A stretch of DNA of 64,000 bases from Armatimonadota bacterium. GTDB lineage: Bacteria > Armatimonadota > Fimbriimonadia > Fimbriimonadales > Fimbriimonadaceae. The notes under the pieces were generated by a model that was not told the DNA's origin, did no database searches, and saw only the letters and a program-made list of their open reading frames with translations. This document shows positions 3,709-29,494 of the stretch, in pieces. Where the stretch lies: the NCBI GenBank assembly GCA_018268395.1, contig JAFDWQ010000005.1, positions 345,939-409,938 on the forward strand, given 5' to 3'. The first letter of the stretch is position 1. Each line of letters starts with the position of its first letter. Position numbers and translations under genes: made by a program.

Positions 3709-5055
3709 ATGCCCATTAAGCCAGAGACGACATCCAATCAAGTCACTACCACGACTCTTCGATCTGTCCAAGTGAACATTCTCGACCCTAAAGAAGCCGT
3801 AGATGCAGTCAACGAGTGCTCGAAGCACGTTTCAGTTTATTTTACTGCATTTCTCGCCTTCACTGCATACATGGTGCTAACGATCGCATCGACGACAGAC
3901 TACATGCTTCTTGTCGGCCGAGACTTGAACTTGCCTATCGTTAACATCTCCTTGCCCCTGAAATGGTTCTACGCCGTAATGCCACCCATATTCTTGGGGT
4001 TGCACCTCAATCTTCTCCTTCACGTCGGTTGCCTGCGAGATCAGATTGATGTTTTTGAGTCGATGGGAGAACCTGCAGAACGTACGTTACGCAGGAAGTT
4101 ACTATGGCCATTTGCCTTAACGTATGCTTTCTTCCCCGAAACCTTGATTTGGTATCGTGTTGTTGAACTGCTGACTGTGCGAATAATGCCAGTTGTGGCA
4201 CTTCTTTTCATTCAGCTCCGATTCTTGCCATATCACGATACAACTATTACATCATTGCACCGAATCTGTGTACTTGTTGACTTCGCAATAGTGCTCATCT
4301 TTTATCGTATGGTCAACCGCACCAGGATATCGCGATATTTGAAGGTGCTCCAGGCCAGCGCAACTTTGTACGTTAGTGTATTCCTTTTCGTAGTACCTGG
4401 TGATCTACTTGATAGCCTGCCGTTTAGTGCAGCATGGTTGGAGTCCAACGTTTGGCCTGGAGTTCCTCTGCAAACCCACCCTATTCATCGTAATCTCCTA
4501 TTGATGGATCAGAATATTGGTAAGGACGATGTCATTCGGAACATCAGTACGATGCCCCCGGAGGAGCGAATGGGGCCTTTGGATCCATTCAAAATTCCTT
4601 CCACGTCATTCAGCGGTCGCGATCTAAGGGGCGCACGCTTCATAAGCTGCACCTTTGTACGTCCACAGTTCTTCAGTGCCGACCTTGCAGGCGCTAGATT
4701 CCTAATGTGCGATTTGCTAGGCGGTAGTTTTGAGATGGCACGCTTGGCTGATGCGCATCTGGTCGGTTGCTCACTGCGCTCGACAAACTTCCGTGGGGCC
4801 GATTTCGAGGGTGCCGTGGTTGAAAAGTCGGATTGCAGTAGCGCGGTTTTCACATACGCAGATCTTTCGTCCGCGAGTCTTAGAGATGTGTTACTGCGTA
4901 AGGCACGATTGGGACTAGCAAAATTTGAATCACGGGGACATATTCTGATACTGAGGGACACTGAATGGTCTAGCGCTGACTTTTTTCTGCGAGGGGGCAC
5001 CAAGGACTTGGATGCGATTCAATGGTTAGTAAAACATTATCCTGCAGATGGGTGA
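3709..5055 (+). CDS. membrane protein with pentapeptide repeats
   Basis: A 448-residue protein of unknown function. About six hydrophobic segments lie between residues 45 and 235 (first near VYFTAFLAFTAYMVLTIAS), so the front half is in the membrane. From about residue 302 to 405 there is a pentapeptide-repeat solenoid (FSGRDLRGARF, ADLAGARFLMCDL, NFRGADFEGA, ADLSSASL), which should form a right-handed beta-helix. A strong Shine-Dalgarno sequence (AAAGGAGGG near 3698-3706) supports the start. The gene is AT-richer than its surroundings, which points to transfer. Similar fusions occur in accessory regions, but the role is not established. Confidence 0.85.
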   Translation: MPIKPETTSNQVTTTTLRSVQVNILDPKEAVDAVNECSKHVSVYFTAFLAFTAYMVLTIASTTDYMLLVGRDLNLPIVNISLPLKWFYAVMPPIFLGLHLNLLLHVGCLRDQIDVFESMGEPAERTLRRKLLWPFALTYAFFPETLIWYRVVELLTVRIMPVVALLFIQLRFLPYHDTTITSLHRICVLVDFAIVLIFYRMVNRTRISRYLKVLQASATLYVSVFLFVVPGDLLDSLPFSAAWLESNVWPGVPLQTHPIHRNLLLMDQNIGKDDVIRNISTMPPEERMGPLDPFKIPSTSFSGRDLRGARFISCTFVRPQFFSADLAGARFLMCDLLGGSFEMARLADAHLVGCSLRSTNFRGADFEGAVVEKSDCSSAVFTYADLSSASLRDVLLRKARLGLAKFESRGHILILRDTEWSSADFFLRGGTKDLDAIQWLVKHYPADG

Positions 5056-6592: not shown

Positions 6593-7462
6593 GTGAACGA
6601 GAAAGTCTACGAACAGGTCACGGCCCAGATCACAAACGCACTCCTCCGAGGAGTCGTCCCATGGCGCAAACCGTGGGCCGGCGGTGATGCAATGCCGACA
6701 AACGCAAGAAGCAAGAAGCAGTACCGAGGGGTGAACGTGTTCCTACTTGCGCTCAGTCCCTTCACCGATCACCGATGGGTCACCTTCCAGCAAGCACAGG
6801 AGTTGGGAGGCAACGTCAAACGGGGCGAGCGGTCTTGCCCGGTCGTCTTTTGGAAACCCTGGCACGTCGAAGGCGTCGACCAGGAAGCCGGTGAGGTCGT
6901 GAAATGGAACGTTCCACTTCTCAAGCAGTACCACGTCTTCAACGTGGAGCAGTGCGAGAAACTAGACATCCCTCCGCTGATGCGCCACGGCAGGTTAAAT
7001 AAACGGATCGAGCGGGCTGAGCAACTGTTCCGAAGCGTCCCTGATCCTCCCCGGTTCCAAGAACAAGGGACGTCGGCCTGGTATCGACCGACCGAGGATC
7101 TCGTCCAAGTGCCACCGATCGCGTCGTTCGAATCGGCAGACTCCTACTACGCCACAGTCTTCCATGAGCTAGGACATGCCACGGGTCACGAGCGGAGACT
7201 GAACCGAGCCTCAGTCACTGGCGAGATTCAGTTCGGATCTGCCTGCTACAGCCGCGAAGAACTCACAGCGGAGCTCTGCTCAGCGTTCCTTTGCGCGGCC
7301 ATCGGACTCGACAATTCACTCATTGAAAACTCGGCGAGCTACGTCCAGTCTTGGCTCTCAGCCCTTCGAAGCGACAAGCGAGCCATTGTGTTCGCTGCCG
7401 CACGGGCACAGAAAGCCGCCGACTATCTCTTGGGAGTCACCTTTGACGACCAACCCATCTAG
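6593..7462 (+). CDS. ArdC-family antirestriction protein / zincin-like peptidase
   Basis: A 289-residue ArdC-type protein. The N-terminal single-stranded-DNA-binding domain (about 1-120) has the family pattern RGVVPWRKPW ... YRGVNVFLL ... VTFQQAQELGG. The C-terminal zinc-metallopeptidase-like domain has FHELGHATGH at about residue 193, followed by the family Glu region SREELTAEL. Proteins of this family protect incoming plasmids and conjugative elements from restriction. The start is GTG 6593, nine bases behind GAGG. The gene lies just upstream of a type I restriction operon, on the same strand, and ends at a clear terminator. Confidence 0.88.
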   Translation: MNEKVYEQVTAQITNALLRGVVPWRKPWAGGDAMPTNARSKKQYRGVNVFLLALSPFTDHRWVTFQQAQELGGNVKRGERSCPVVFWKPWHVEGVDQEAGEVVKWNVPLLKQYHVFNVEQCEKLDIPPLMRHGRLNKRIERAEQLFRSVPDPPRFQEQGTSAWYRPTEDLVQVPPIASFESADSYYATVFHELGHATGHERRLNRASVTGEIQFGSACYSREELTAELCSAFLCAAIGLDNSLIENSASYVQSWLSALRSDKRAIVFAAARAQKAADYLLGVTFDDQPI

Positions 7463-8256: not shown

Positions 8257-8306
8257 TTGCCAAGTACGCCCCCAAAGCGGTCGTTCCGCAAAACCCACCC
8301 GTTTGA

Positions 8307-8345
8307 TGCAAGCGCTTGACACTCGGGAACCAAGTGTCGTATCGT
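8307..8345 (+). promoter_or_regulatory. promoter/operator of the defence operon
   Basis: TTGACA at 8316-8321 and TATCGT at 8340-8345 (spacing 18) make a plausible promoter ahead of the helicase gene. Overlapping it are TGCAAGCGCTT (8307-8317), which recurs upstream of the other excisionase-like gene (22644-22654), and an inverted repeat ACACT...AGTGT. This would let the HTH domain of the first protein regulate its own operon. The inference is from sequence only. Confidence 0.45.
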
Positions 8346-8375
8346 GCCGTTTGGTATCATACGAGAACAAACGAC

Positions 8376-10397
8376 ATGACTACATCCGGATGGCTCACGC
8401 CCGAAGAGGCTGCCAATTACCTGAGCATTGGGCGAACCAAGCTGTACGAGCTGGCACAGCTTGGGAAGATTCCAGCCCAACGGATCGACAAGCAATGGAG
8501 GTTCAAAGCTGAAGACCTGGATCGGTGGCTTTCGGTTTCAAAATCGATCGACGGGTATTTCCAAACGATCCCGGCAAACATCCTCGACAACGAGCTGCTT
8601 CGCGAACCGCAGCGCGAAGCCTATGCCAAGCTGTATGACTTCTTTAAGTCGGGTGGCAAGGACGCTCTGATTCAGCTCCCCGTGGGTTGCGGCAAGTCAG
8701 GTTTGGCGTGTATCGCACCGTTCGGCATCGCCGAGGGAAGGGTGCTGGTCATTACGCCGAACCTCACGATCCGTGACGAGATGAAGAACAATCTCGACAT
8801 CACAAACCTGAAGTGCTTTCTCAAGCGCTCGAACGTGTTGTCGAAAGTGGACATGCTTTCCGGGCCCTTCGTGACGACGCTCGACACGGGAAACACGAGC
8901 GTGACGGATGAATCTCACTTCGTCGTCACCAACGTGCAGCAACTCGCAACAAACACGGACAAGTGGCTCACAAAATTCACATCCGACTATTTCGACATGA
9001 TCATCGTCGACGAGGCACACCATAGCGCCGCGTCGAGCTGGCAGAAGGTGAACGACCACTTTCCGAAAGCCAAGGTTATCAACCTTACGGCGACGCCGTT
9101 CCGCAGCGACGCTAAGGAAATCGGTGGTGATCGGATCTATCGGTATCCGTTCCGCAGTGCGATGGCTAGGGGTTACATCAAGAGCCTCACCGTGGTCTAC
9201 GTTTCTCCGCAGGAGATCGAGCTCACATTCAAGGGCGAGAGTGAGGCAACGACGCTCACGCTAGACGAAGTCCTGAAGCTAAAGGAGGAGGAATGGTTCA
9301 GCCGTGGCATTGCCATGTCGGACAAATGCAACGAGTCGATCGTGGACAACAGTCTGGAGAAAGTCGAGTTCCTTCGAAACGGGTCTAGCATCAAGCACCA
9401 GATCATCGCCGTTGCAATGTCTATTCCGCACGCGGAGAAGATCCGGCTGCTCTATGAGGAGCGAAACTACGACGTAGCTGTCATCCACAGCAAGATGAGC
9501 GAAGAGGATCAAGCCACCGTCCTCAAACGCCTTCGCAGCAATGAACTCGACGCCATTATCAACGTGCAGAAGCTGGGCGAGGGCTTTGACCACCCTCAGC
9601 TTAGTGTTGCCGCCGTCTTCCGACCTTACCGCTCTCTAAGCCCCTACCTTCAGTTCGTGGGCCGTATTATGCGCGTGAACGTCCAGAACAAGCCGCGCGA
9701 TCCGGACAACTATGGATTCATAGTGACCCACGCTGGGATGAACCTCGACCGACTTCTAGACGACTTCAAGCAATTCGAAAAGGACGACGAGGAGTTCTGG
9801 GCGAAGATTAGCGCGGGATTGGAGCCGGACGAGCCGCCGCTTCCTCGGGGGGAAGGTGGCGGACGCCAAAACATCAAAGCGCCGCTCGTCGTCCATGGTG
9901 AAATCGTCAATACGCTCTTTGAAGAGGAGTTCATTGACGACGAAGAGGAACGTCTCCAGCAACTCCGAGAACAGCTCGAAGCCCTTGGCTTTGATCCCGG
10001 CAAAGCTACGGAGATAGTCCGCACGGAAAGGAAGGAGCGCTACGAAGTGGTTCCCGCGGCGTCCCCGCTCGTCGTTCAACCTCAGAAAGAGCTGGAGAGG
10101 CTGCGCAAACAGCTAGACATTGAGATTCGGGCCAAGGCAAAGGTGGTCGTCGTGAACAGCGGATTGAAGATTATTGGTCGAGACATTCCCGCCAAACTCA
10201 TTCCGGACATCGCCGCCGTGAACAATTTGATCGCCGTGATCGTGATGATGAGCCAGGCCGTCAAGCAGAAAGTAAACGACCGGCCACGTGCCGAGTGGAG
10301 TCGCGACGACTTTGCACGGGCAATTGAGCTGGTTCCTGGAATCGCGCAAGATACCGTGAGGCGAATCTTGGCGGCCAAGGGAGCTAAAGATGCCTAA
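8376..10397 (+). CDS. superfamily 2 helicase with N-terminal excisionase-type DNA-binding domain
   Basis: A 673-residue fusion. Residues 1-55 are a MerR/excisionase-type winged helix (GWLTPEEAANYLSIGRTKLY ... WRFKAEDLDRWL). The rest is a DEAD/DEAH helicase of the restriction-helicase kind: Walker A LPVGCGKSG (about 100), VVDEAHHS-type DEAH box (about 210), TATPFRSD (about 238) and the C-terminal lobe with QFVGRIMRV (about 425). The end (560-673) is charged and helical. It is first in a dense operon with type I restriction genes, overlapping the next gene by 8 bases. I take ATG 8376 because the frame upstream runs through the promoter. Likely role: defence-associated ATPase or remodeller, possibly also regulating the operon. 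Confidence 0.85.
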   Translation: MTTSGWLTPEEAANYLSIGRTKLYELAQLGKIPAQRIDKQWRFKAEDLDRWLSVSKSIDGYFQTIPANILDNELLREPQREAYAKLYDFFKSGGKDALIQLPVGCGKSGLACIAPFGIAEGRVLVITPNLTIRDEMKNNLDITNLKCFLKRSNVLSKVDMLSGPFVTTLDTGNTSVTDESHFVVTNVQQLATNTDKWLTKFTSDYFDMIIVDEAHHSAASSWQKVNDHFPKAKVINLTATPFRSDAKEIGGDRIYRYPFRSAMARGYIKSLTVVYVSPQEIELTFKGESEATTLTLDEVLKLKEEEWFSRGIAMSDKCNESIVDNSLEKVEFLRNGSSIKHQIIAVAMSIPHAEKIRLLYEERNYDVAVIHSKMSEEDQATVLKRLRSNELDAIINVQKLGEGFDHPQLSVAAVFRPYRSLSPYLQFVGRIMRVNVQNKPRDPDNYGFIVTHAGMNLDRLLDDFKQFEKDDEEFWAKISAGLEPDEPPLPRGEGGGRQNIKAPLVVHGEIVNTLFEEEFIDDEEERLQQLREQLEALGFDPGKATEIVRTERKERYEVVPAASPLVVQPQKELERLRKQLDIEIRAKAKVVVVNSGLKIIGRDIPAKLIPDIAAVNNLIAVIVMMSQAVKQKVNDRPRAEWSRDDFARAIELVPGIAQDTVRRILAAKGAKDA

Positions 10398-10638
10398 AGG
10401 ACGGCCGCCCTCGATGCTGAGCATGGGCAATGGCCCTTTGAAGTTCGTCACCTCGGTCAACGCGACCAATTGCAAGAGGTGCAAAGGACGCATTCTCGGG
10501 AAGACGTTGTGTGCTGAGCTTCCAGTATTCCAAAATGGATTCCCCATACCAAAGCGTGTCTGCCTCTCCTGTGCTGCTGCTATCGTCAACACGACGCAGT
10601 CCGACCTCGACAACCTGCGCGCTCAATTACCGGCATGA
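10390..10638 (+). CDS. small zinc-finger protein
   Basis: An 82-residue protein with two CxxC pairs (CKRC near residue 28 and CLSC near residue 59), a probable treble-clef or zinc-ribbon module. Its ATG overlaps the end of the helicase gene and it is followed 38 bases later by hsdM, so it belongs to the operon. No homologue recognised; it could be a partner of the helicase. Confidence 0.65.
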   Translation: MPKGRPPSMLSMGNGPLKFVTSVNATNCKRCKGRILGKTLCAELPVFQNGFPIPKRVCLSCAAAIVNTTQSDLDNLRAQLPA

Positions 10639-10676
10639 ACCTTCCGGAATGCGCTCACTTCCACTAATCTGAACTT

Positions 10677-12212
10677 ATGCTCACAGGCGACCTACGAAAC
10701 CAAATCGACCGACTCTGGGACTCGTTCTGGTCGGGTGGAATCTCCAACCCCCTGGAGGTGATGGAGCAGATCACGTACCTGCTCTTCCTTCGGCGTCTCG
10801 ACGAGCTCCAGCAGCTTGAGGAGAACAAGGCCTCTCGCCTCGGTCAGCCGATCGAGCACCGTTTCTATCCGGATGGAAAGGATACGAAAGGGCGTTCATA
10901 CCAAGACCTTCGTTGGAGCCGGTTCAAGCATTTCGCCCCCGCCGAAATGTACGAGGTGGTGAATGAGCACGTCTTCCCGTTCCTCAGGACGCTAGGCGGT
11001 AATGGCAGCACCTACGCCCATCACATGAAGGACGCACGGTTCACGATCCCGACCGCTGCACTCCTGTCCAAGGTTGTCGACCTCATCGACAAAGTGCCGA
11101 TGGAAGACCGGGACACCAAGGGCGACCTGTACGAGTACATGCTCAGCAAGATCGCCACGGCCGGTCAAAACGGGCAGTTCCGCACTCCGCGTCACATCAT
11201 CCAGCTTATGGTCGAGATGATGGCTCCACGACCGACCGACACGATCTGCGATCCAGCCAGTGGCACTTGCGGCTTTTTAGTTGCGGCCGGCGAGTACCTT
11301 CGCCGCGAGAACCCGGAAATGCTCCGCGACCCCAAGCTCCGCGACCACTTCCACGGGCAGATGTTCCACGGTTACGACTTTGACAACACCATGCTCCGCA
11401 TCGGCAGCATGAACATGATGTTGCACGGAGTCGAGAACCCGGTCATCACCTACCGCGACTCCTTGGCCCAGGATCACGGCGGCGAGGCGAACAAGTACAC
11501 GCTGGTCTTGGCAAATCCGCCGTTCGCAGGCTCTCTGGACTATGAGAGCACGGCCAAGGACTTGCTCCAGATCGTCAAGACGAAGAAGACCGAGCTCCTT
11601 TTCCTTGCACTCTTCCTCAGGCTCATGAAGCCGGGTGGTCGGGCCGCGGTCATCGTCCCTGACGGTGTGCTCTTCGGATCGAGCACCGCTCACAGGGCTC
11701 TCCGCCAGCTCATCGTCGAGGAACAAAAACTGGACGCCGTTGTCAGCCTTCCGAGTGGAGCATTCAAGCCCTACGCCGGCGTCTCGACTGCCGTGCTGTT
11801 CTTCAGCAAGACCAACTCGGGGGGAACAGACGAGGTCTGGTTTTACGACGTCAAAGCTGACGGCAGGAGCCTCGACGACAAACGGACTCCCCTTCTTGGT
11901 GAGGACAAGCTTGGGCCGGTTCCTGCAACGAAGTTGACCGAGGAAGAGCACGCCAAGAACAATCTGCCCGATGTACTGGCACGGTGGGGCCATCGAGCAG
12001 ACACTGAGCGCCAGAATCCAAGAACGGCTCAGAGCTTCACTGTGCCCAAGTCTGAGATCGCGGCCAACGGCTACGACCTCAGCCTCAATCGGTACAAGGA
12101 GATCGAGCACGAGGAGGTCGAGCATCGCGACCCGAAAGAGATCTTGGCACAGCTCTGGAAACTAGAAGAGGAGATTCAAGCAGGCATGCGCGAGCTTGAA
12201 GCAATGCTATGA
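10677..12212 (+). CDS. hsdM: type I restriction-modification methyltransferase subunit
   Basis: A 511-residue HsdM, which transfers a methyl group from S-adenosylmethionine to adenine in the sequence chosen by HsdS. The N-terminal helical HsdM_N domain (about 1-140) is followed by the methyltransferase core: motif I DPASGTCGF near residue 192 (the common form is DPACGTGGF) and the catalytic NPPF near residue 280. The C-terminal region has the usual GYDLSLNRYKE and a closing coiled helix. Its stop overlaps the TIR gene (ATGA), so M and S are separated here by two extra genes. Confidence 0.95.
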   Translation: MLTGDLRNQIDRLWDSFWSGGISNPLEVMEQITYLLFLRRLDELQQLEENKASRLGQPIEHRFYPDGKDTKGRSYQDLRWSRFKHFAPAEMYEVVNEHVFPFLRTLGGNGSTYAHHMKDARFTIPTAALLSKVVDLIDKVPMEDRDTKGDLYEYMLSKIATAGQNGQFRTPRHIIQLMVEMMAPRPTDTICDPASGTCGFLVAAGEYLRRENPEMLRDPKLRDHFHGQMFHGYDFDNTMLRIGSMNMMLHGVENPVITYRDSLAQDHGGEANKYTLVLANPPFAGSLDYESTAKDLLQIVKTKKTELLFLALFLRLMKPGGRAAVIVPDGVLFGSSTAHRALRQLIVEEQKLDAVVSLPSGAFKPYAGVSTAVLFFSKTNSGGTDEVWFYDVKADGRSLDDKRTPLLGEDKLGPVPATKLTEEEHAKNNLPDVLARWGHRADTERQNPRTAQSFTVPKSEIAANGYDLSLNRYKEIEHEEVEHRDPKEILAQLWKLEEEIQAGMRELEAML

Positions 12213-13174
12213 GTAATGATCCGCACCGAGCATTCATTTCACACGCCAGCGAGGATAAGCCGGTCTATGCCGAGCCCCTGGCTGTCAGCCTGCGTGCGAT
12301 GGGTGTGGACGCTTGGTTAGACAAATGGGAGATGCAACCAGGCGACAGCCTGATCCAGAAAATCTTCTCAGAAGGAATTCATGGCACAGACGCGGCCGTG
12401 ATCATCCTATCCCATACAAGCATCGTTAAGCCTTGGGTTCAAAAAGAACTCAATGTCGCGGCAGTCGACAACATCCAAAAAGCGCTCCGCTTGATCCCGG
12501 TTCGGGTCGATGACTGTACAGTGCCCGACGTGCTCCGTGATCTCCTTTGGTTGGACTGGACTGCCGAAGGCGGTGCGGAACCCGTTGCTAAGCGGATCGT
12601 CGAGACGCTTCACGGACATAGTTCCAAGCCACCACTTGGAACACCGCCTCCCCACCTGACAGCACCGAGGTTCACTGTCCCCGGCTTGAACGCCCGTGAC
12701 ATCAAAGTCCTCCAGATCATCTTTGAAGCGTCTCTGGAAAGCGGAACTGTGCTAATTCAGGGCGAACCAATCCTCGGGCCCGCAGAAGAGGCAGGACTTT
12801 CCTTTGACCAGGTTAAGGAGTCCATCCAAATGCTTGAGTCTCGCGGCTTCATCGTCGACGAAGATCAAACAATCGCTCAGCGCCAAGTGATCGTCACCCT
12901 AAACCCGGGTGAAGCACTGAAGCTTGGGCAATCGTATGGATATGACCTTGAAGCCATGCTTCGTAAGCTCGTGGCCATAGTCTGCAATGAGCAAGCACAC
13001 TCTCTTTATGCCCTGGTCGAGCAGTTGCCCGAGTACCCTCGGGGCCTTGTCGAGGCATCGGTCAGAGTGCTCGCAGGAAATGGCTTTTGGCGAGAGTCCG
13101 GAACGATCGACGGGAATCTCCATATCTATTCGGTCACGCCGACAGCGAAGCGATGGTTGGAGGCGAATACATGA
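12209..13174 (+). CDS. TIR-domain protein with C-terminal winged-helix region
   Basis: A 321-residue protein. Residues about 5-135 are a TIR domain: RAFISHASEDK, GVDAWLDKWEMQPGDSLIQK, VIILSHTS, and WVQKEL with a Glu (about residue 79) in the place of the catalytic Glu of NAD-cleaving TIRs. The rest (about 160-321) looks like one or two helical winged-helix units (EEAGLSFDQVKESIQMLESR; NGFWRES). It overlaps hsdM and the RhuM gene by 4 bases each, so all three are co-translated. Bacterial TIR proteins commonly act as NAD-depleting abortive-infection effectors; activity here is inferred. Confidence 0.85.
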   Translation: MSNDPHRAFISHASEDKPVYAEPLAVSLRAMGVDAWLDKWEMQPGDSLIQKIFSEGIHGTDAAVIILSHTSIVKPWVQKELNVAAVDNIQKALRLIPVRVDDCTVPDVLRDLLWLDWTAEGGAEPVAKRIVETLHGHSSKPPLGTPPPHLTAPRFTVPGLNARDIKVLQIIFEASLESGTVLIQGEPILGPAEEAGLSFDQVKESIQMLESRGFIVDEDQTIAQRQVIVTLNPGEALKLGQSYGYDLEAMLRKLVAIVCNEQAHSLYALVEQLPEYPRGLVEASVRVLAGNGFWRESGTIDGNLHIYSVTPTAKRWLEANT

Positions 13175-14187
13175 GCGACCAACCCAGGTCAGGCGAGATC
13201 ATCCTCTACACCGCCACCGATGGCGTGGCCCGAATTGAAGTCACATACGAGAGCGAGACGTTCTGGCTCTCTCAGCGGAAGATCGCCGACCTGTTTGGCG
13301 TGTCCGTGCCGACCGTCAACGAGCACCTGGCGAACGTCTTTGAGTCTGGCGAACTCGACCGCGAGGCAACTATTCGGAAATTCCGAATAGTTCAGGTGGA
13401 GGGCGACCGGGAGGTCGAACGCGAGGTCGAGCACTACTCTCTCGACGCCATCATTGCCGTCGGCTACCGGGTCAACTCCAAGCAGGCGACTCAGTTCCGG
13501 ATCTGGGCCACCAACACCCTCAAAGAGTACGTCATCAAGGGCTTCGTCCTGGACGACGAGCGGCTCAAGCTCAACAAGCGGTTCGGCAAGGACTACTTCG
13601 ACGAGCTCCTTGAACGCATCCGGGAAATCCGGGCGAGCGAGCGGCGCTTCTATCTGAAGATCACCGACCTCTACGAGCAAGCAAGTATCGACTACGATGC
13701 CAAGGCGGAGATCACCAAGACCTTCTTCGCGACCGTCCAGAACAAGCTCCATTGGGCCGTGAGTGGTCAAACCGCTGCCGAAATCATCGCCGATCGGGCT
13801 GACGCGACCAAGCCGAGCATGGGGCTCACGACGTGGAAGAACGCACCGCACGGCAAGGTGCTGAAAGGTGATGTCGGAACGGCGAAGAATTACTTGATCG
13901 AGAGGGAGATCAAGGACTTGGAGCGCATCGTCACGATGTACCTCGACTACGCCGAGCTCCAGGCGTCGCGGCACATCGCGATGAAGATGGCCGACTGGGT
14001 CGAGAAGCTCGACGCCTTCCTTCAGTTCAACGGCTTCGAGGTGCTCGACAACCCTGGCAAGGTCTCGGCCGAGGTGGCCAAGCGACTGGCTGAGGAGCAG
14101 TACGAAAAGTACAGGGTCAGGCAAGACGAGGCGTTCGAGAGCGACTTTGAACGTGAGGTGAAGCGAATCGAAGGGGAGGAACAATGA
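13171..14187 (+). CDS. RhuM-family protein
   Basis: A 338-residue member of the RhuM (virulence RhuM) family. The start MSDQPRSGEIILYTATDG leads into the family pattern with FWLSQRKIADLFGVSVPTVN, HYSLDAIIAVGYRVNSKQAT, QFRIWATNTLKEYVIKGFVL and DDERL. The first part resembles a phage antirepressor/KilA-N-type DNA-binding module. RhuM genes are often inserted between hsdM and hsdS in type I systems, as here, where 4-base overlaps exist on both sides. The biochemical function is not known. Confidence 0.9.
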   Translation: MSDQPRSGEIILYTATDGVARIEVTYESETFWLSQRKIADLFGVSVPTVNEHLANVFESGELDREATIRKFRIVQVEGDREVEREVEHYSLDAIIAVGYRVNSKQATQFRIWATNTLKEYVIKGFVLDDERLKLNKRFGKDYFDELLERIREIRASERRFYLKITDLYEQASIDYDAKAEITKTFFATVQNKLHWAVSGQTAAEIIADRADATKPSMGLTTWKNAPHGKVLKGDVGTAKNYLIEREIKDLERIVTMYLDYAELQASRHIAMKMADWVEKLDAFLQFNGFEVLDNPGKVSAEVAKRLAEEQYEKYRVRQDEAFESDFEREVKRIEGEEQ

Positions 14188-15365
14188 CCTACGAGACGTT
14201 ACCGCTAGCGAAGGTCGCCACATTTCTAGATTCAAAACGTAGGCCGGTCAAAGAGGCTGACCGAGTGGAGGGGCCGTATCCCTACTACGGGGCGAACGGT
14301 CAGCAGGGATGGATAGACGGCTTTCTGTTTGACGAGCCGCTAATTCTTCTCGCCGAGGACGGTGGCCACTTTGATGATCCCAAGCGAGGGATTGCATATG
14401 CCATCAAAGGCAAGACATGGGTTAACAACCACGCACATGTCCTGAAACCGAGTGAGAGGATGGATTTTCGATATCTCCTCCACGCTCTCAAGAATCGAGA
14501 TGTTCGAGCGTACATTAACGGAAGCACACGAGCGAAACTCACCAAGGACGGAGCCGCGAGAATCCCAGTCCAGGTTCCGCCGCTCGACGAGCAACGCCGC
14601 ATCGCGTCGATTCTGGACAAGGCCGAGGACCTCCTCGCTAAACGCCGCGCCGCGCTCGACCTCCTCGACCAGCTCCCGCAAGCCACCTTCCTCGAAATGT
14701 TTGGCGACCCCGCCACCAACCCCAAGGGCTGGCAAGTTCGCCCACTACGTGATGCGGCCGATGGCAAATATGGCGTGAAAGCGGGGCCGTTTGGGTCAGC
14801 TATCAAGAAGGAGGACTACGTCTCTCATGGGTATCGCGTCTATGGTCAGGAGCAGGTCATTGGTGGCAGTTTTGAGATCGGAGACTATTACATCGACGAA
14901 CGCAAGTATAAGAAGCTTGAATCCTGTGCCGTCAAGACTGGCGATCTCTTAATGAGCCTGGTCGGGTCATTTGGAAAGGTTCTAGTTGTTCCAGAAGGCA
15001 TTGAACCGGGCATCATCAATCCTCGACTGCTCAAGATTACGCCTAACTCCTCATTGCTTAATTCAACGTTCTTAGCTCACCAGATTCAGTTCCCAACCAC
15101 CCAATCTCGGCTATCTAGCGTGGCTCACGGCGGAACAATGGGCGTGCTAAATGCTGGCATTCTGAAGGATCTTATCACCGTCATGCCTCCCATCGACCTC
15201 CAACGCCGATTCGTCGCCCGAGTGGAGGCGATCCACCGCGCCAAAGCCGCCCACCGATCCGCCCTCGAGAAACTCGACGCCCTCTTTTCTACGCTCCAAA
15301 GCCGAGCTTTCGAACAAGGGCAGACCCCGCCCGAATACATGACGCGAGAACTCGTTTCCCGCTAG
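14184..15365 (+). CDS. hsdS: type I restriction-modification specificity subunit
   Basis: A 393-residue HsdS, which recognises the two halves of the target and holds the M and R subunits. Two target-recognition domains (about 5-135 and 180-330) are separated by a conserved helix (PPLDEQRRIASILDKAEDLL, about 132-170). A second helix follows at the end (PPIDLQRRFVARVEAI). The target sequence cannot be read from this. The start overlaps the RhuM stop by 4 bases. Confidence 0.94.
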   Translation: MTYETLPLAKVATFLDSKRRPVKEADRVEGPYPYYGANGQQGWIDGFLFDEPLILLAEDGGHFDDPKRGIAYAIKGKTWVNNHAHVLKPSERMDFRYLLHALKNRDVRAYINGSTRAKLTKDGAARIPVQVPPLDEQRRIASILDKAEDLLAKRRAALDLLDQLPQATFLEMFGDPATNPKGWQVRPLRDAADGKYGVKAGPFGSAIKKEDYVSHGYRVYGQEQVIGGSFEIGDYYIDERKYKKLESCAVKTGDLLMSLVGSFGKVLVVPEGIEPGIINPRLLKITPNSSLLNSTFLAHQIQFPTTQSRLSSVAHGGTMGVLNAGILKDLITVMPPIDLQRRFVARVEAIHRAKAAHRSALEKLDALFSTLQSRAFEQGQTPPEYMTRELVSR

Positions 15366-15377
15366 AATGAGGGAGCC

Positions 15378-16583
15378 ATGTCGAGCACCGTCCGAACTCG
15401 GCTCAGTCACGAGACCCTGAAATGGGCCCGTGCTGCGAGTGGCTTTGAACCTGACGAGGTGGCCAAGTCGGCGGGTGTTTCACTTCAGCGATACAAGGAA
15501 TGGGAGACAGGAGATGACCGACCCACCTTCAGACAACTTCGCCAAGTGGCGAACAAGCTGAAGCGCCCGCTGGCAATGTTCTACTTGCGGAAGCCACCTG
15601 TCGAACCGGCCCTTCCTCCCGACTTTCGAGTTGTTCCAGGCAAGGAGGACAGCTCGTATAGCCCTGAGTTACGGCTTGAAATCCGAAAGGCCGAGCGGAT
15701 GCAACTGCTTCTGGCATGTTTGGTCGAAGAATTGAATCTTTCGCAGCCAAAGGACGTACCTCGCATCCGAGTCGAGGACGACCCAGAGTCCGCCGGAGGG
15801 CTCTTGCGCAGTTTCCTTGGACTTTCCGTTGAGCAACAACTCAGTGTCGGCGAGCCAGCGGCTCTCTACCGAGAATGGCGAGACGCCATCTTTTCGCGAG
15901 GGGTTGTACCGATACAATTTGGTGTTGAGCGCGAGCAAGCGCTGGGCTTTGCCTTGTGGCACGACTTTGCACCCCTCGTGGCCGTCAATACGAGGCAAGC
16001 AGCGGAAGCGAAGACTTTCACCCTGCTTCACGAGTTGGCACACATTGCCTTGCGTATGCCAGGCGTTTCGGATGCGGCAATTCCCTTCAGGCAAGTCTCC
16101 GACGGATCACGATCCGAGATAGAAGCCTTTTGCAACCGCGTTGCCGCCGCCACCTTGTTGCCGGCGGACTCAGATGCTCTGAAGGCCACAATGTCGGCTC
16201 TTACGCAGACGGCGAAGTTGGATCTAGCCTCTTTTCGCCTGCAGGCCCGCCGTTACGGTGTCAGCAAGTATGCCTTGGCCTACAGGCTCTCTAGTCTAAA
16301 CCCGGATCTCGGAAGCGGAGTACAGGCCGCTGTTTCTCAGTGGTTTGCCATCGATAACGCCAAGAAGCCAGCCCCTACTGTGAAGAAGGGCGGGCCGCCG
16401 CCCGCGCTGATAACTCTCGGCAGACGCGGACGAGGCTTTTCCAAGGCAGTTCTGTCTGCAGTGCGTGAGAGCCGCCTTAGCGTTGATGATGCACGAGACC
16501 TGCTCGATCTTGAACCGCACCATTTCCCCAAGCTTGAGGAGTACGTTTTCAAGGGCACTCCCGATGAGGAGGGCGAGGAGTGA
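15378..16583 (+). CDS. XRE-ImmA/IrrE-type metallopeptidase
   Basis: A 401-residue protein with an N-terminal XRE helix-turn-helix (about 10-65; DEVAKSAGVSLQRYKEWETG) and an ImmA/IrrE zinc peptidase domain with HELAH at about residues 219-223 plus a downstream Glu in SRSEIEAFCN. Members cleave repressors in response to a signal or act as antitoxins when coupled to a toxin. GAGGGA seven bases before ATG 15378 is a good ribosome binding site. The stop overlaps the next gene (GTGA), which encodes a PIN-like DUF4411 protein; this pair is a known toxin-antitoxin-like arrangement. Confidence 0.9.
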   Translation: MSSTVRTRLSHETLKWARAASGFEPDEVAKSAGVSLQRYKEWETGDDRPTFRQLRQVANKLKRPLAMFYLRKPPVEPALPPDFRVVPGKEDSSYSPELRLEIRKAERMQLLLACLVEELNLSQPKDVPRIRVEDDPESAGGLLRSFLGLSVEQQLSVGEPAALYREWRDAIFSRGVVPIQFGVEREQALGFALWHDFAPLVAVNTRQAAEAKTFTLLHELAHIALRMPGVSDAAIPFRQVSDGSRSEIEAFCNRVAAATLLPADSDALKATMSALTQTAKLDLASFRLQARRYGVSKYALAYRLSSLNPDLGSGVQAAVSQWFAIDNAKKPAPTVKKGGPPPALITLGRRGRGFSKAVLSAVRESRLSVDDARDLLDLEPHHFPKLEEYVFKGTPDEEGEE

Positions 16584-17077
16584 GCAATACATACTTGCTC
16601 GACAACAATGTGTTGATCTTCCTCCAGTGGGGCGATCCCCACTTTCAATTCGGGCCAATTTACGACTGGATAGATACGATGGGTCAAGCTGGCCGCCTAT
16701 TCGTTCCTGAGGTTGTGCTTGGTGAGTTCAAGAACAAGGAGCGAAGGCAATGGTTCGACGACCGCCCTCATCTGTGCCTCAAACACGATGACGACCAGGA
16801 CGAGTGTCTGGCAGAGCTGGTTAATCAGCTCCCTGACTTCGTTGACCCTTCAAAGACATCCGAGGATGGCGATCAGCCCCTTGTGTCGGCTGCGATGAAG
16901 CTCAACCGCGTGGCCACCGGGGACTTTGGCTCGGGCCCGGCGATCGTTGTGTCACACGAGCAGCGCCGAAAGGCAACGTTTCCATATCTGAAGGTTCCGG
17001 ACGCCTGCGATCACTACCAGATTCATTGCGTCGATTTCTTCGAGATGCTAAGGATGGAGGGAGTGCTAACCATCTGA
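16580..17077 (+). CDS. DUF4411-type PIN-like protein, probable toxin
   Basis: A 165-residue PIN-like protein of the DUF4411 kind. It begins YLLDNNVLIFLQ with the first acidic residue of the PIN active site, has EVVLGEF near residue 46, and DQPLVSAA with a further Asp in the second half. PIN-domain proteins are usually ribonucleases. The GTG start at 16580 overlaps the ImmA gene by 4 bases, and hsdR follows after 6 bases. The genomic pairing with an ImmA-type gene suggests a toxin-antitoxin module lodged inside the restriction operon. Confidence 0.75.
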   Translation: MSNTYLLDNNVLIFLQWGDPHFQFGPIYDWIDTMGQAGRLFVPEVVLGEFKNKERRQWFDDRPHLCLKHDDDQDECLAELVNQLPDFVDPSKTSEDGDQPLVSAAMKLNRVATGDFGSGPAIVVSHEQRRKATFPYLKVPDACDHYQIHCVDFFEMLRMEGVLTI

Positions 17078-17083
17078 TCCGTC

Positions 17084-20000
17084 ATGGATTCTCAGTTTTC
17101 CTTCTTACAGCTCGAGTTTCCCGAAGCCTTCGAATCCGCCTACCGGGCGGAGGCTTTGGCAAACCCGGATCCTCGGGCGGCATGCTTCTACGCACGCCGC
17201 GCCCTCGAGTTGGCCGTCACCTGGATTTACGAGAACGATCCGGCAGTTCAGCTCCCCTATCGCGAAGACCTGAGCGCACTCATCCACGAGCCGTCGTTCC
17301 GGCAGCTCGTCGGCCAGCCCGTCTTCTACAAATGCCGCGCGATCAAGGAGCTCGGCAACCTAGCAGTCCACTCCAACAAACCAATGACGGCGAACGAGTC
17401 AGTGTCAGCTGTCCGTGAGCTCTTTCACGTCTGTTACTGGCTCGTCCGCACGTACGGGAAGGGTGCGAAACCAGAACCGGGAACAACGTTCAACCCGGCT
17501 CTTCTTCCAACGGACTCGGGAGTCCCAAAGCAGACCCTGGCCGAGCTCCAAGCACTGAACGATCAGTTGGCGACAGAGCGTGAGAAGCTGTTCACAGCCC
17601 TCTCTGAGCGAGATGACTTGGACGAGCAGCTCAAGAAAGCTCGTGCGGAGCTTGCGGCAGTCAAAAAGGCAAACGAAGCGACTCCAGATCGGCACAACTA
17701 CTCCGAGGCCGAGACTCGCGACCTCTTCATTGATCTCCTGCTCTTGGAGGCAGGATGGACCCTCGACAAATCCGAAGACCGAGAATTCGAGGTTGACGGA
17801 ATGCCGAACAACGAGGGTAAGGGGTTCGTCGACTACGTCCTTTGGGGAGATGATGGCAAACCGGTCGGACTCGTGGAAGCCAAGCGCACGAAGCGGGATC
17901 CTCGCGAGGGGCAGCACCAGGCAAAGCTCTATGCCGACTGCTTGGAGAAGCGGTTCGGGCAACGGCCGGTGATCTTCTACACGAACGGCTACCAGCACTG
18001 GATGTGGGACGACGCGTCGTACCCACCCCGGGAAGTGCAGGGGTTTTTCAAGAAGGCGGAGCTTGAGCTGATGATCCAGCGGCGACTGTCGCGGAAGTTG
18101 CTGGCCCGCACGGCGATCAACGAGAAAATTGTCGAGCGCTACTACCAGACGAGGGCGATACGCCGTATCGGCGAGTCCTTCGAGCAGGACAACATGCGCC
18201 GCAGTCTGCTGGTTATGGCGACTGGCGCCGGCAAGACGCGAACGGTCATTGCCCTTGCTGACCAACTGATGCGAGCAAATTGGGCGAAGCGCGTGCTCTT
18301 CCTGGCCGACCGCGTTGCACTTGTTAACCAAGCGGTGAACGCGTTCAAAAAGCACTTGCCTGAAGCGACGACCGTCAACCTCGTCACCGAGAAGAACGTC
18401 GAAGGCAGAATCTACGTCAGTACGTACCCGACCATGATCGGCCTGATCGACGAGACGAAGGGCCAAGAGCGAATGTTTGGGCCAGGTCACTTTGACCTCA
18501 TCGTGATCGACGAGGCCCACCGCTCGATCTTCATGAAGTACAAGTCGATCTTCGACTACTTCGACAGCCTGTTGGTAGGATTGACGGCGACGCCGAAGGA
18601 CGAAGTCGACCGCAACACTTACAAGCTGTTCGAGTTGGAAGATGGCGTGCCGACCGACGCATATCCGCTTGAAGACGCGGTTCTTGACCACTACCTGGTG
18701 CCAGCGCGATCGGTGTCCGTCCCTCTGAAGTTCCACTCTGAAGGGATCAAGTACGACGACTTGTCCGATGATGAGAAGGAACAGTTTGAGCTCACCGATT
18801 GGAAGGAGCGCGACGATGTGCTCCAGAGCAAGAAGGTCGAGGCCACGGCGATCAACCAGTGGCTGTTCAACGAAGACACGGTCGACAAGGTGCTTAAGCA
18901 CCTAATGGAGCGCGGGCTGAAGGTTGACGGCGGCGATAAGCTTGGCAAGACCATCATTTTCGCCAAGAACCACGACCACGCGGTCTTCATCGCCGATCGC
19001 TTCAACAAGAACTACCCGATTTACAAGGGCGATTTCGCCAAAGTCATCGATTTTAAGACCGAGTACGCCCAGGATCTCATCGACAAGTTCAGCAGCGCGC
19101 CGAAGATGCCTCAGATCGCGATCTCAGTGGACATGCTCGACACCGGAATCGATGTTCCTGAAGTCGTGAATCTCGTCTTCTTCAAGCAAGTTCGTTCCAA
19201 AACCAAGTTCTGGCAGATGGTCGGGCGCGGCACGCGCTTGTGCCCTGACCTCTTCGGCCCAGGTCTGGACAAGAAGGAGTTCTTCATCTTTGACTACTGC
19301 GGCAATCTAGAGTTCTTCAGCCAGGATATGGAGGGCACTGACGGCACTTCTGGCATGTCGCTCTCCGCGAGGCTGTTTGCGGCTCGCTTGCAGCTGATCG
19401 CCAAGCTGAGCTCTACGGAAACGGGCGCCACAGCAGTCAGGGAGCACGTCGAACAATACGGCGAACCAAAGTCGGACGAGGAAGTGATGAAGTCCATCGT
19501 CGGAATCCTCATGGCGGAGGTTGGCTCGATGAACACGGGCAATTTCATCGTGCGTGCAAAGCGGAAGTTTGTCGAGAAGTACCAGCAAGCTGAGGAGTGG
19601 GGCGACCTAGACCCGGAAAAGCTAGCTGAGCTGGAACACGAAATCGCAGGCCTACCGACTGAGCAAGCTCCCGAAGCAGTGGAGTCCAAGCAGTTCGATC
19701 TGACAATGCTCCGAGTCCAACTGGCGCTCCTCAATTCATCGCCCACCTACAAGCGGCTGAAGCAACAAGTGCAGGACATTGCCGGAGCTTTAGAGGAGTC
19801 GGCCGACATTCCAGCAATCAAGGCTCAGATGAACCTCATCGAGGACTTACAGAACGATGGATGGTGGGAGGATGTGACTGTTCCGATGCTGGAGATGGTC
19901 AGGCTCCGATTGCGCACACTGGTCAAGCTCATCGAACGACAAAAGGGCAATCCGGTCTACACAGACTTTGGCGACGAGATGGGCGAGGAGTCCGAGGTCA

Positions 20001-20491
20001 CCTTGCCTGGATTTACGAGCGCCGTCAGCTTTGAGCGATTTCGCGAGAAGGCACGTGCCTTTCTGCGGGCGCACCAAGACAAGGAAGCGATCCAGAAACT
20101 CCGCCTGAACGAGCCGATGACCGAAGCAGATCTTGCCCAGTTGCAGGAGATCCTAGTTGAAAGCGGAACAGGCGACGAGGAGACAATCCAAAAGGCTTCG
20201 GAGCAGGGGCTTGGATTATTCGTGCGATCCCTGGTCGGGCTAGATCGAGAGGCTGCGAAGTGCGCGTTCAACGAGTTTCTTGTCGGTAGGGAGCTGAATC
20301 CGAACCAGATCGAATTCATCGATCTGATCATCAACTATCTCACGGAACACGGGGTGATGGAGCCGCGGGCACTGTACGAGTCCCCCTTTACGGACATCAA
20401 TCCCCTCGGCCCCGATGGGGTCTTCGAGTCAGGTTGGGTCGACAAGATCATCGGCGCGCTCACCTCAATCCGAGAACACGCCCTGGCATAG
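17084..20491 (+). CDS. hsdR: type I restriction endonuclease subunit R
   Basis: An 1135-residue HsdR, the motor and nuclease of the type I complex. The N-terminus (about 1-120) is a DUF4145/HEPN-like helical domain (FYARRALELAVTWIYEND), followed by a coiled coil (about 150-200). The nuclease has a D...ExK site (FVDYVLWG ... VGLVEAKR, about 248-268). The helicase has Walker A ATGAGKTRT (about 377), DEAHRS (about 475), LTATPKDE (about 505) and QMVGRGTRLC (about 713). A C-terminal coupling domain ends the protein. It closes the operon; together with hsdM and hsdS it gives a complete system. Confidence 0.95.
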   Translation: MDSQFSFLQLEFPEAFESAYRAEALANPDPRAACFYARRALELAVTWIYENDPAVQLPYREDLSALIHEPSFRQLVGQPVFYKCRAIKELGNLAVHSNKPMTANESVSAVRELFHVCYWLVRTYGKGAKPEPGTTFNPALLPTDSGVPKQTLAELQALNDQLATEREKLFTALSERDDLDEQLKKARAELAAVKKANEATPDRHNYSEAETRDLFIDLLLLEAGWTLDKSEDREFEVDGMPNNEGKGFVDYVLWGDDGKPVGLVEAKRTKRDPREGQHQAKLYADCLEKRFGQRPVIFYTNGYQHWMWDDASYPPREVQGFFKKAELELMIQRRLSRKLLARTAINEKIVERYYQTRAIRRIGESFEQDNMRRSLLVMATGAGKTRTVIALADQLMRANWAKRVLFLADRVALVNQAVNAFKKHLPEATTVNLVTEKNVEGRIYVSTYPTMIGLIDETKGQERMFGPGHFDLIVIDEAHRSIFMKYKSIFDYFDSLLVGLTATPKDEVDRNTYKLFELEDGVPTDAYPLEDAVLDHYLVPARSVSVPLKFHSEGIKYDDLSDDEKEQFELTDWKERDDVLQSKKVEATAINQWLFNEDTVDKVLKHLMERGLKVDGGDKLGKTIIFAKNHDHAVFIADRFNKNYPIYKGDFAKVIDFKTEYAQDLIDKFSSAPKMPQIAISVDMLDTGIDVPEVVNLVFFKQVRSKTKFWQMVGRGTRLCPDLFGPGLDKKEFFIFDYCGNLEFFSQDMEGTDGTSGMSLSARLFAARLQLIAKLSSTETGATAVREHVEQYGEPKSDEEVMKSIVGILMAEVGSMNTGNFIVRAKRKFVEKYQQAEEWGDLDPEKLAELEHEIAGLPTEQAPEAVESKQFDLTMLRVQLALLNSSPTYKRLKQQVQDIAGALEESADIPAIKAQMNLIEDLQNDGWWEDVTVPMLEMVRLRLRTLVKLIERQKGNPVYTDFGDEMGEESEVTLPGFTSAVSFERFREKARAFLRAHQDKEAIQKLRLNEPMTEADLAQLQEILVESGTGDEETIQKASEQGLGLFVRSLVGLDREAAKCAFNEFLVGRELNPNQIEFIDLIINYLTEHGVMEPRALYESPFTDINPLGPDGVFESGWVDKIIGALTSIREHALA

Positions 20492-20527
20492 GATTGCCCT
20501 GGCCAATTCCGTGCCAGGGCTTCATTC

Positions 20528-21121
20528 TCACTTGTCTGATGCTTGAACAGGCTCAAGTAGTCGTAACCTGTTGCCCGCAGCAGCCCACGAATCACGAATC
20601 GACTTCTTGTACTTGGGCAGCACCCCAACAAAGTCGACTGATGTAACTCGGCGGTCTTTACAGATTCGATCGATTGACTTTGTGTAGCGAGAGATGGTGG
20701 GGGTATTCGAGGCCGAGTCATCTCCCCCGTCGGTCATCACGGTGACCTGTACGCGGTCAGCGGTCGTTGCGGATAGCCGGGCCGAAACAGCCTCTGCCAT
20801 GTCAACGAAGTTCGTGCCTCGGCGCTTATCCGACGAGTCGGTTCCTCGTTTCAATCTGGAAACGATGGCCTCGATTGGCGTCGAGTCAATTTCTCCCGCG
20901 AGAAGTTCTTCAGTGGTAGACCCCATCCTGTAGAGGCTGAACGTCGTACTGGGATCCGCTGACTCCAGCCTCGATACGACAACTGCTTGTTGTTGAGCAC
21001 GCTCGGCTCGGGTGCTTCCGCTGTAGTCGACGACGAGCACAAGTTCAGTTCTGCTCCCGTGGATGCAAGCGGCCTGGCACAGAACCACCGCGATCAATAT
21101 GAGGGACGAGTAGCCCTTCAC
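20528..21121 (-). CDS. von Willebrand factor A lipoprotein
   Basis: A 197-residue exported protein. A hydrophobic N-terminal signal ends at Cys19 (VLCQAAC), a possible lipoprotein site. A VWA domain follows, with an intact MIDAS metal site DYSGS (Asp32, Ser34, Ser36), a Thr near residue 98 in RGTNFVDMAE and VTVMTDGGDD near residue 127. The GTG start at 21121 overlaps the stop of the upstream membrane-protein gene. It probably acts with that protein at the membrane; the partner and ligand are unknown. It converges on hsdR, 36 bases away. Confidence 0.8.
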   Translation of the reverse strand: MKGYSSLILIAVVLCQAACIHGSRTELVLVVDYSGSTRAERAQQQAVVVSRLESADPSTTFSLYRMGSTTEELLAGEIDSTPIEAIVSRLKRGTDSSDKRRGTNFVDMAEAVSARLSATTADRVQVTVMTDGGDDSASNTPTISRYTKSIDRICKDRRVTSVDFVGVLPKYKKSIRDSWAAAGNRLRLLEPVQASDK

Positions 21122-29478: not shown

Positions 29479-29494
29479 GCCAGATTTTTTGAAG

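Follow-up and report, generated by a model that had tools for sequence, protein, structure and literature searches.

Why should a DNA helicase carry a sequence-specific DNA-binding domain of its own? The question is raised by a gene at positions 8376 to 10397, forward strand, of a 64,000-nucleotide stretch of an Armatimonadota genome (assembly GCA_018268395.1, contig JAFDWQ010000005.1, positions 345,939 to 409,938), referred to below as the window. An original prediction, made from the letters alone, had seen an excisionase module fused in frame to a DEAH helicase there. The analysis presented here indicates that the gene belongs to a pair, and the explanation that we favour on balance is that of a mobile two-gene cassette, consisting of a motor with its own promoter-binding helix-turn-helix (HTH) and a small partner protein, which would act in defence against phages or plasmids.

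The in-frame fusion is certain. The open reading frame (ORF) ends at 10397 and codes for 673 residues from the ATG at 8376, or for 693 from the TTG at 8316 given in the ORF list; this TTG coincides with a -35 hexamer, TTGACA, and the starts of the relatives lie near the ATG. Pfam places an HTH_17 domain at residues 6-52 (8391-8531, forward strand), with 54.7 bits against a curated cut-off of 27 (E 1.2e-14), and an SF2 (superfamily 2) motor at 8598-9677 (forward strand; also found by alignment and structure), in which ResIII (residues 75-243) and Helicase_C (334-434) are likewise above cut-off. The NCBIfam excisionase profile TIGR01764 ('excise') was matched with 50.6 bits against a cut-off of 28.8. 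The domain-architecture search thus bore out the predicted fusion, as did an alignment of 19 sequences with 38-79% identity to the window protein, HTH included (the sequence with 79%, L004, is truncated at 510 residues). The fusion is not a chance event, as every row of this alignment begins with the HTH at the same place. The N-terminal location of the module was correct, its extent (residues 1-55) being narrowed to residues 6-52 by the profile match.

The Walker A, DEAH and C-terminal helicase motifs are intact (Pfam and alignment), and P102-V-G-C-G-K107, D212-E-x-H-H, T240-P-F-R, L400-GEGFDH and Q426-F-x-G-R are invariant or nearly so across the 19 rows. The solved structures nearest to the predicted helicase structure (model from 26 aligned relatives, mean predicted local distance difference test, pLDDT, 79) are RadD, XPB and an HsdR fragment. 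Partial NCBIfam motor matches were to RadD, HsdR, UvrB and XPB, none of them near its own cut-off: 81.5 bits against 720 for the RadD equivalog NF053632 and 61.8 against 550 for the EcoAI-type HsdR NF046051, with HSDR_N unmatched in Pfam. The HTH part reached 45.8 bits against the cut-off of 80 for MADS MAD1 (NF047737). When the HTH was compared by sequence with solved structures, the best E value was 0.22, so that its link to BldC and RdfS rests on the Pfam family and on published work. Pfam found no nuclease domain in the helicase or in its partner.

In a tree of 50 motor cores, the relatives fell into an HTH-less group (16 rows, support 100/100), a MerR-type group (7 rows, 96/99), an HTH_17-type group (14 rows, 91/90) and a Firmicutes/Leptospira-type group (10 rows, 99/97); two rows lay outside their own groups, L015 with an HTH_17 and L153 without an HTH. 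Helicases of this kind had been supposed to do without a sequence-specific binder as a rule; this is true of the HTH-less cousins found here, but has to be amended in that two HTH-bearing types exist. It is unlikely that the first domain is a part of the helicase family that does not bind DNA, since the domain is an HTH_17, cousins with the same motor do without it, and its presence tracks phased repeats in the promoter. On a Rhodococcus plasmid (L160, 1291-2006) there is a broken copy, the HTH part of which is annotated as a separate MerR-family regulator.

Direct repeats at spacings of 6 to 30 were counted in the 75 nucleotides before the start codon and compared with 200 letter shuffles. 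A spacing of 10 came out on top in the HTH_17-type loci (z 13.6, n = 20; 12.9 for the 15 dereplicated loci) and in the MerR-type loci (z 10.8, n = 7), and was not enriched upstream of the HTH-less loci (z -0.3, n = 16). The corresponding control values were -0.0, 1.8 and 0.2 at -150 to -75 and -1.2, -0.9 and 2.1 within the genes. Because letter shuffles do not model relatedness, the contrast between the classes is the main argument for the repeats. Runs of at least 6 at this spacing were present in 9 of 20 HTH_17-type, 5 of 7 MerR-type and none of 16 HTH-less loci. MerR-type loci fetched after the pattern had first been noticed gave runs of 11 (L080), 7 (L151), 7 (L152) and 8 (L161), and HTH_17-type loci fetched later gave 9 (L150) and 4 (L073). 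Inverted repeats upstream of the helicase, considered as a common feature, were inconsistent across loci and were rejected.

In the window, a promoter-like site, TTGACA-18-TATCGT, lies at 8316-8345 on the forward strand (a consensus match only, found once against a mean of 0.1 in shuffles of the region). A motif derived from 12 or 15 other loci, the window being excluded, was scanned over both strands of the 64 kb: this promoter was the best match in all four runs and both first and second match in three of them, and control motifs from HTH-less upstream regions or from -150 to -75 did not pick it. The putative operator consists of two direct 20-mer matches 10 bp apart on the forward strand (8334-8353 and 8344-8363, matrix from other loci), over and just past the -10 element, and of an inverted motif on the reverse strand (8358-8377, matrix and consensus searches) that runs into the start codon. 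A consensus drawn with the window in view had two window matches with up to 2 mismatches, both at 8345-8376; their place and not their number is informative, as at least two matches also occurred in 34 of 100 shuffles. In the 3.7-Mb genome from which the window comes, the consensus of the two window sites was found with 0-1 mismatch at this promoter only, and with 2 mismatches at 7 places, against 4 for the reversed control pattern. Across the relatives, the type of HTH and the type of site vary in step, HTH_17 going with TATCRTTTG-like sites and the MerR-like HTH with TGCATAAGGT-like sites, a comparison of two types only.

These arrangements have precedents. According to passages of PMC5859096, BldC, whose HTH is MerR-like, binds head to tail to 9-bp direct repeats, and passages of PMC11963761, whose authors class RdfS among the group 17 HTH domains, describe one RdfS molecule as bound per 10 bp. 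Since the phased repeats track the HTH, the motif and own-genome matches fall on the gene's own promoter, the sites overlap its -10 element and BldC and RdfS offer a precedent, we consider it very probable that the HTH controls its own operon, most likely by repression. Regulation of its own promoter had been raised as a possibility in the original prediction, and the repeats, the matrix, the genome-wide consensus search and the promoter-like site, all within the stretch 8290-8376, now lend it good comparative support.

The helicase gene is followed by a small gene (10390-10638, forward strand) that overlaps its last 8 nucleotides and codes for 82 residues with a conserved PS near the N terminus and two Cys pairs, C28-x2-C31 and C58-x2-C61. 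This gene is almost certainly real; like the mobile cassette and the operon context, it did not figure in the original prediction. A counterpart, judged by eye from position, length and motif, follows the helicase at all 17 HTH_17-type loci with DNA past the helicase stop (L004, L053 and L054 end too early), at 6 of 7 MerR-type loci (the exception, L048, has a helicase frame that ends early) and at all 17 loci of the HTH-less proteobacterial type, its ORF starting between -56 and +30 nucleotides relative to the helicase stop. A search of plasmids with the partner returned 7 records, the same 7 that contain full-length helicases, and it always lay just downstream of the helicase; none of them gives it a named feature (the gene table is incomplete), and the annotation of the HTH-less cousins calls it a hypothetical protein. 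A partner profile had one match, at the helicase, in each of 10 genomes; the loci of these genomes being themselves rows of the profile, only the absence of a second copy is informative. In nine Firmicutes/Leptospira-type cousins (L049, L050, L075, L083, L086-L089 and L091) a different small partner of about 93-112 residues follows, that of L075 matching phrog_12848, a family of unknown function.

No Pfam or PHROG family fits the partner. Among 14 HTH_17-type partners, P7, S8, C28, C31, C58, C61 and L73 are invariant, and only C28 and L73 remain so when HTH-less and MerR-type partners are added (17 rows). The AlphaFold2 model (pLDDT 84.2) shows two strands paired as a hairpin together with a long helix at the C terminus; the first Cys pair precedes the hairpin, and the second sits where the helix begins. 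Foldseek ranks 1-22 for this model were PARP-1 or ligase III fingers (E 0.055 and worse), and the best 12 VIA rows, with Z 5.1-6.0 over 57-68 residues, were likewise PARP-1 fingers. The two Cys pairs presumably fall on the PARP zinc ligands, with which the aligned ranges are consistent. The zf-PARP family PF00645 (cut-off 39.3 bits) gave no match to the window partner; its best match, below cut-off, was the partner of an HTH-less cousin, with 17.2 bits (E 0.009). As far as the model can tell, a PARP-like finger is slightly the better guess for this protein.

With the window protein as query, relatives were found at 11 loci in named genomes, with source labels that include Pseudomonas, Sinorhizobium, Propionibacterium, Binatota and the archaeon Methanolobus; several of these loci are contigs of metagenome-assembled genomes, the archaeal one just 6,766 bases long, so the labels may be binning errors. 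The nearest tree row to the window helicase is labelled Propionibacterium (80% over 379 columns) and the row labelled Methanolobus falls among bacterial rows, placements which, with the same caution as to metagenomic labels, would fit movement between phyla. At E 1e-80 the family is rare: in two classes it occurred in 5 of 385 and 2 of 369 genomes, and in a phylum in 1 of 296, the genome searched from being counted each time. The HTH_17-type loci sit on plasmids, other genome contigs and viral contigs, and some of their regions, from ORF sequences alone, read as resembling integrative and conjugative elements or, for L054, as lying beside tail genes. The helicase matches 323 plasmid records, 7 of them with at least 80% coverage, and viral contigs hold both HTH-bearing (L053, L054, L073 and L080) and HTH-less relatives. 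Direct repeats surround the cassette in L013 (49 nucleotides, 86%) and L011 (46 nucleotides, 78%).

Four contigs share a left boundary (L011:8558, L012:9488, L013:9486 and L054:7488), which lies 498-515 bp before the ATG and starts with AAAAAA followed by a hairpin, perfect in three of the four; this suggests a defined mobile unit. Transposon ends were sought by a repeat search at 8 loci and not adopted: the right end was not settled, and otherwise only short or imperfect repeats were seen.

The company kept by these genes suggests what the cassette may do. Neighbours include an OLD/TOPRIM ATPase and UvrD pair (L010), a methyltransferase with an SNF2 helicase (L008), an SNF2/NOV_C helicase (L007) and HsdM (L009), and a Shedu gene lies near L045; some HTH-bearing loci thus have Gabija, DISARM-like or RM genes in their vicinity. 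The neighbours at six loci (L006, L007, L008, L010, L012 and L013) were compared by PADLOC with six control stretches of the same genomes (ORFs of at least 180 residues, simple caller), L005 being excluded as its control contig has just 3,759 bases. At E 1e-15, 154 families, which overlap, were matched in 57 neighbour proteins, against 4 in 77 control proteins. They include GajA (5e-238) and GajB (1.5e-217) of Gabija, and DrmD, DrmA and HmaA are among the first 25 of the 154 families listed, of which the commonest matched just 2 proteins. No system of PADLOC 2023 fits both genes of the cassette: the helicase gave partial matches only, and nothing matched the partner at E 0.1.

An exchange of plasmid cargo, an association which concerns the HTH-less branch, points most strongly to defence. 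The HTH-less cousin is found on small enterobacterial plasmids, between rep and mobC in the Klebsiella plasmid examined, and plasmid backbones of about 94% identity carry in this slot an anti-phage dCTP deaminase, a TIR protein with DUF4231, an acyltransferase or a methyltransferase. Among the best 60 of 1280 backbone-matching records, 29 rows have non-backbone names and 31, the helicase plasmid H101 included, have no cargo name. The cargo of the 29 rows comprises TIR (8), AIPR (6), DUF262 (5), AAA ATPase (3), methyltransferase (2), GTPase (2) and one each of dCTP deaminase, acyltransferase and J-domain proteins. Judged by such associations, defence is on the whole the probable role of the cassette. 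The plasmids concerned (L158 and L176-L179, related, mobilizable, enterobacterial, about 5-6 kb) have an exchangeable rep-mobC slot for a wide variety of defence-like genes, and its AAA ATPase, GTPase, J-domain and acyltransferase cargo is uncharacterised here.

Several observations weigh against this explanation. The slot exchange concerns HTH-less cousins, a branch of 1.47 changes per column away, the neighbour comparison is based on just six loci and six control stretches, and L005, L006 and L014 have no recognised defence neighbour. The 862 annotated phage records that matched all cover less than 80% of the helicase protein. Two remoter relatives from the same phylum (L019 and L020) have no such partner. 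The window's own spacing-10 run is just 4, and runs of 3-4 are found in 11 of the 27 HTH-bearing loci. The PARP-like Z scores are all below 8, with a RING finger next at Z 4.9 and Foldseek E values of at least 0.055, and the likeness seen in the model may be only that of a general treble-clef arrangement. Zinc is not universal among the partners, since the second Cys pair is missing in six (L080, L151, L152, L161, L153 and L156); in the MerR-type ones among them (L080, L151, L152 and L161) the fold may persist without zinc.

In the mechanism that we propose, the first gene would provide an SF2 DNA motor with a RadD/XPB/HsdR-like core, whose N-terminal HTH would bind the phased sites at its own promoter in head-to-tail fashion, with one protomer for every 10 bp or so. 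This array would repress the operon, as the comparative evidence strongly suggests, and autoregulation would keep the motor low. The second gene, translationally coupled to the first in the window, would provide a small protein that is probably a treble-clef finger, similar in shape to the PARP-1 break sensors, and that, to judge from the pairing, probably binds to the motor. The two would most likely detect foreign DNA by its ends, nicks or junctions and translocate along it; in the window the cassette stands at the head of a type I restriction cluster, closely packed on the same strand, that includes TIR and RhuM genes. If this is right, a two-gene family whose partner is an orphan in Pfam and PHROG would join the candidate defence systems, a DNA motor would be its own repressor, and a bacterial protein would possibly share the shape of the PARP break-sensing finger.

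The zf-PARP fingers of PARP-1 (Zn1 and Zn2) and DNA ligase III are the nearest predicted fold of the partner, which nevertheless lies below the Pfam cut-off and has the ligand pattern C-x2-C plus C-x2-C, whereas the PARP finger has a His ligand. The MADS system resembles the window in that an excisionase-type HTH (MAD1) adjoins a type I-like methyltransferase (MAD2), and its mad1 and mad2 models were matched, but far below their cut-offs (45.8 against 80 and 107.2 against 720 bits); to our knowledge, the MADS HTH is not fused to a helicase. Hachiman and Gabija, like the window pair, combine a helicase with a partner gene and occur in defence islands; neither window gene has a nuclease domain in Pfam, and no PADLOC system fits the pair. 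RadD (YejH), XPB and HsdR share the SF2 core, RadD being the best motor profile and among the best solved structures; the window helicase differs in its far lower score for the RadD family, in its extra N-terminal HTH and in that the finger is a separate gene, while the zinc ribbon of RadD lies, according to PMC9049331, within its own chain. BldC, RdfS and Xis have the same Pfam domain, HTH_17, and in the passages cited above phased direct repeats (9 bp for BldC, about 10 bp for RdfS), but they are stand-alone small proteins, whereas here the HTH is fused to a motor. In passages of PMC11090510, RtcR-type proteins, with an HTH fused to an ATPase, are proposed to switch on a downstream defence operon; these are CARF-ATPases with a C-terminal HTH and not DNA motors, and the systems treated in those passages are other than a helicase with a small zinc finger. 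Among the titles listed from a search of open PubMed Central papers, none named such a pair as a system.

The alternative that survives best, although we think it unlikely, is that motor and partner help the replication, resolution or conjugation of the element that carries them. Many relatives are on plasmids, as counted above; the HTH-less helicase gene of a 5.9-kb Klebsiella plasmid has its start within the end of rep, a 6.2-kb Serratia plasmid has a similar arrangement behind an unnamed gene, and recombinase, ParA or mobilisation genes adjoin in several records. A maintenance function is harder to reconcile with the four same-backbone plasmids examined, whose slot holds quite different genes, with copies on chromosomal contigs amid defence genes (the window and L010) and with the copy in the viral contig L054, beside genes read as tail genes.

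A more specific form of the defence explanation, which we regard as rather speculative, is a self-titrating switch, in which the repressive helicase array would be drawn off the promoter by invading DNA that engages the motor. The PARP-like partner would recognise ends or nicks of this DNA, the motor would engage and the operator would be freed, switching on the cassette and, in the window, also the type I restriction-modification (RM) and TIR operon behind it. If so, the effector of this defence would itself do the sensing and the regulation.

A horizontally spread DNA-repair accessory of the RadD type, with the partner providing break recognition, is quite improbable. RadD gives the best match to the motor, in profile and in structure, and the partner resembles break-sensing PARP fingers, but the score of the helicase (81.5 bits against 720) and the rare, patchy occurrence of the family speak against such a role. 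Less probable still is that the HTH directs the motor to a particular sequence in target DNA, making it a sequence-addressed translocase and not a self-regulator. The fusion itself would suit such a function, as would the joint change of HTH and site type. Against it, the only strong site in the genome of origin (phage genomes were not scanned) is the gene's own promoter, where the sites overlap the -10 element, so that the recruitment of the motor to a site, also envisaged in the original prediction, finds no support beyond the promoter. The least probable alternative, an extra subunit or controller gene of this one type I restriction system, is suggested by the place of the pair 38 nucleotides before hsdM, with same strand and tight spacing through hsdR, and by a relative (L009) likewise upstream of a same-strand hsdM, but was rejected as the principal explanation because the closest HsdM loci elsewhere are without the helicase, with similarity starting at hsdM, and no type I genes are listed next to the plasmid relatives examined.

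The genes behind the cassette form with it a series of nine on the same strand (8376-20491), with gaps of at most 38 nucleotides or overlaps. The partner gene is followed, all on the forward strand, by hsdM, coding for an N6 methyltransferase (10677-12212), which is possibly read from the same promoter, and by genes for a TIR-domain protein (12209-13174; Pfam, PADLOC), a RhuM-family protein (13165-14187; ATG 13165 was chosen here, the ORF list starting at TTG 13087), the specificity subunit HsdS (14184-15365; Pfam, PADLOC), an HTH_3/IrrE-like (Peptidase_M78) protein (15378-16583; Pfam, PADLOC), a DUF4411 protein (16580-17077; Pfam) and the restriction subunit HsdR (17084-20491; Pfam, PADLOC, NCBIfam). 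No terminator-like site was found between the partner gene and hsdM, the sole forward-strand site in 10300-20700 lying inside hsdM. The closest HsdM elsewhere occurs in 10 other genomes (291 searched, own included), in none of which the helicase match is better than E 3.4e-10; the five nearest helicase relatives in the phylum, by comparison, have E values of 1.1e-92 or better. The cassette is therefore separable from this RM system. DNA similarity to the closest HsdM loci begins at 10674-10677 in 8 of 11 loci, and the cassette was most likely added in front of the RM cluster, as far as such comparisons go; it may drive or control the type I restriction cluster behind it.

An arrangement like that of an integrated mobile element lies just upstream of the cassette in the window, with genes for a large serine recombinase (1012-2667), for a pentapeptide-repeat protein (3709-5055) and for an antirestriction protein of ArdC-like type (6593-7462). 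Further downstream, at 29489-32782, it codes for an RHS-repeat protein with 11 matched stretches.
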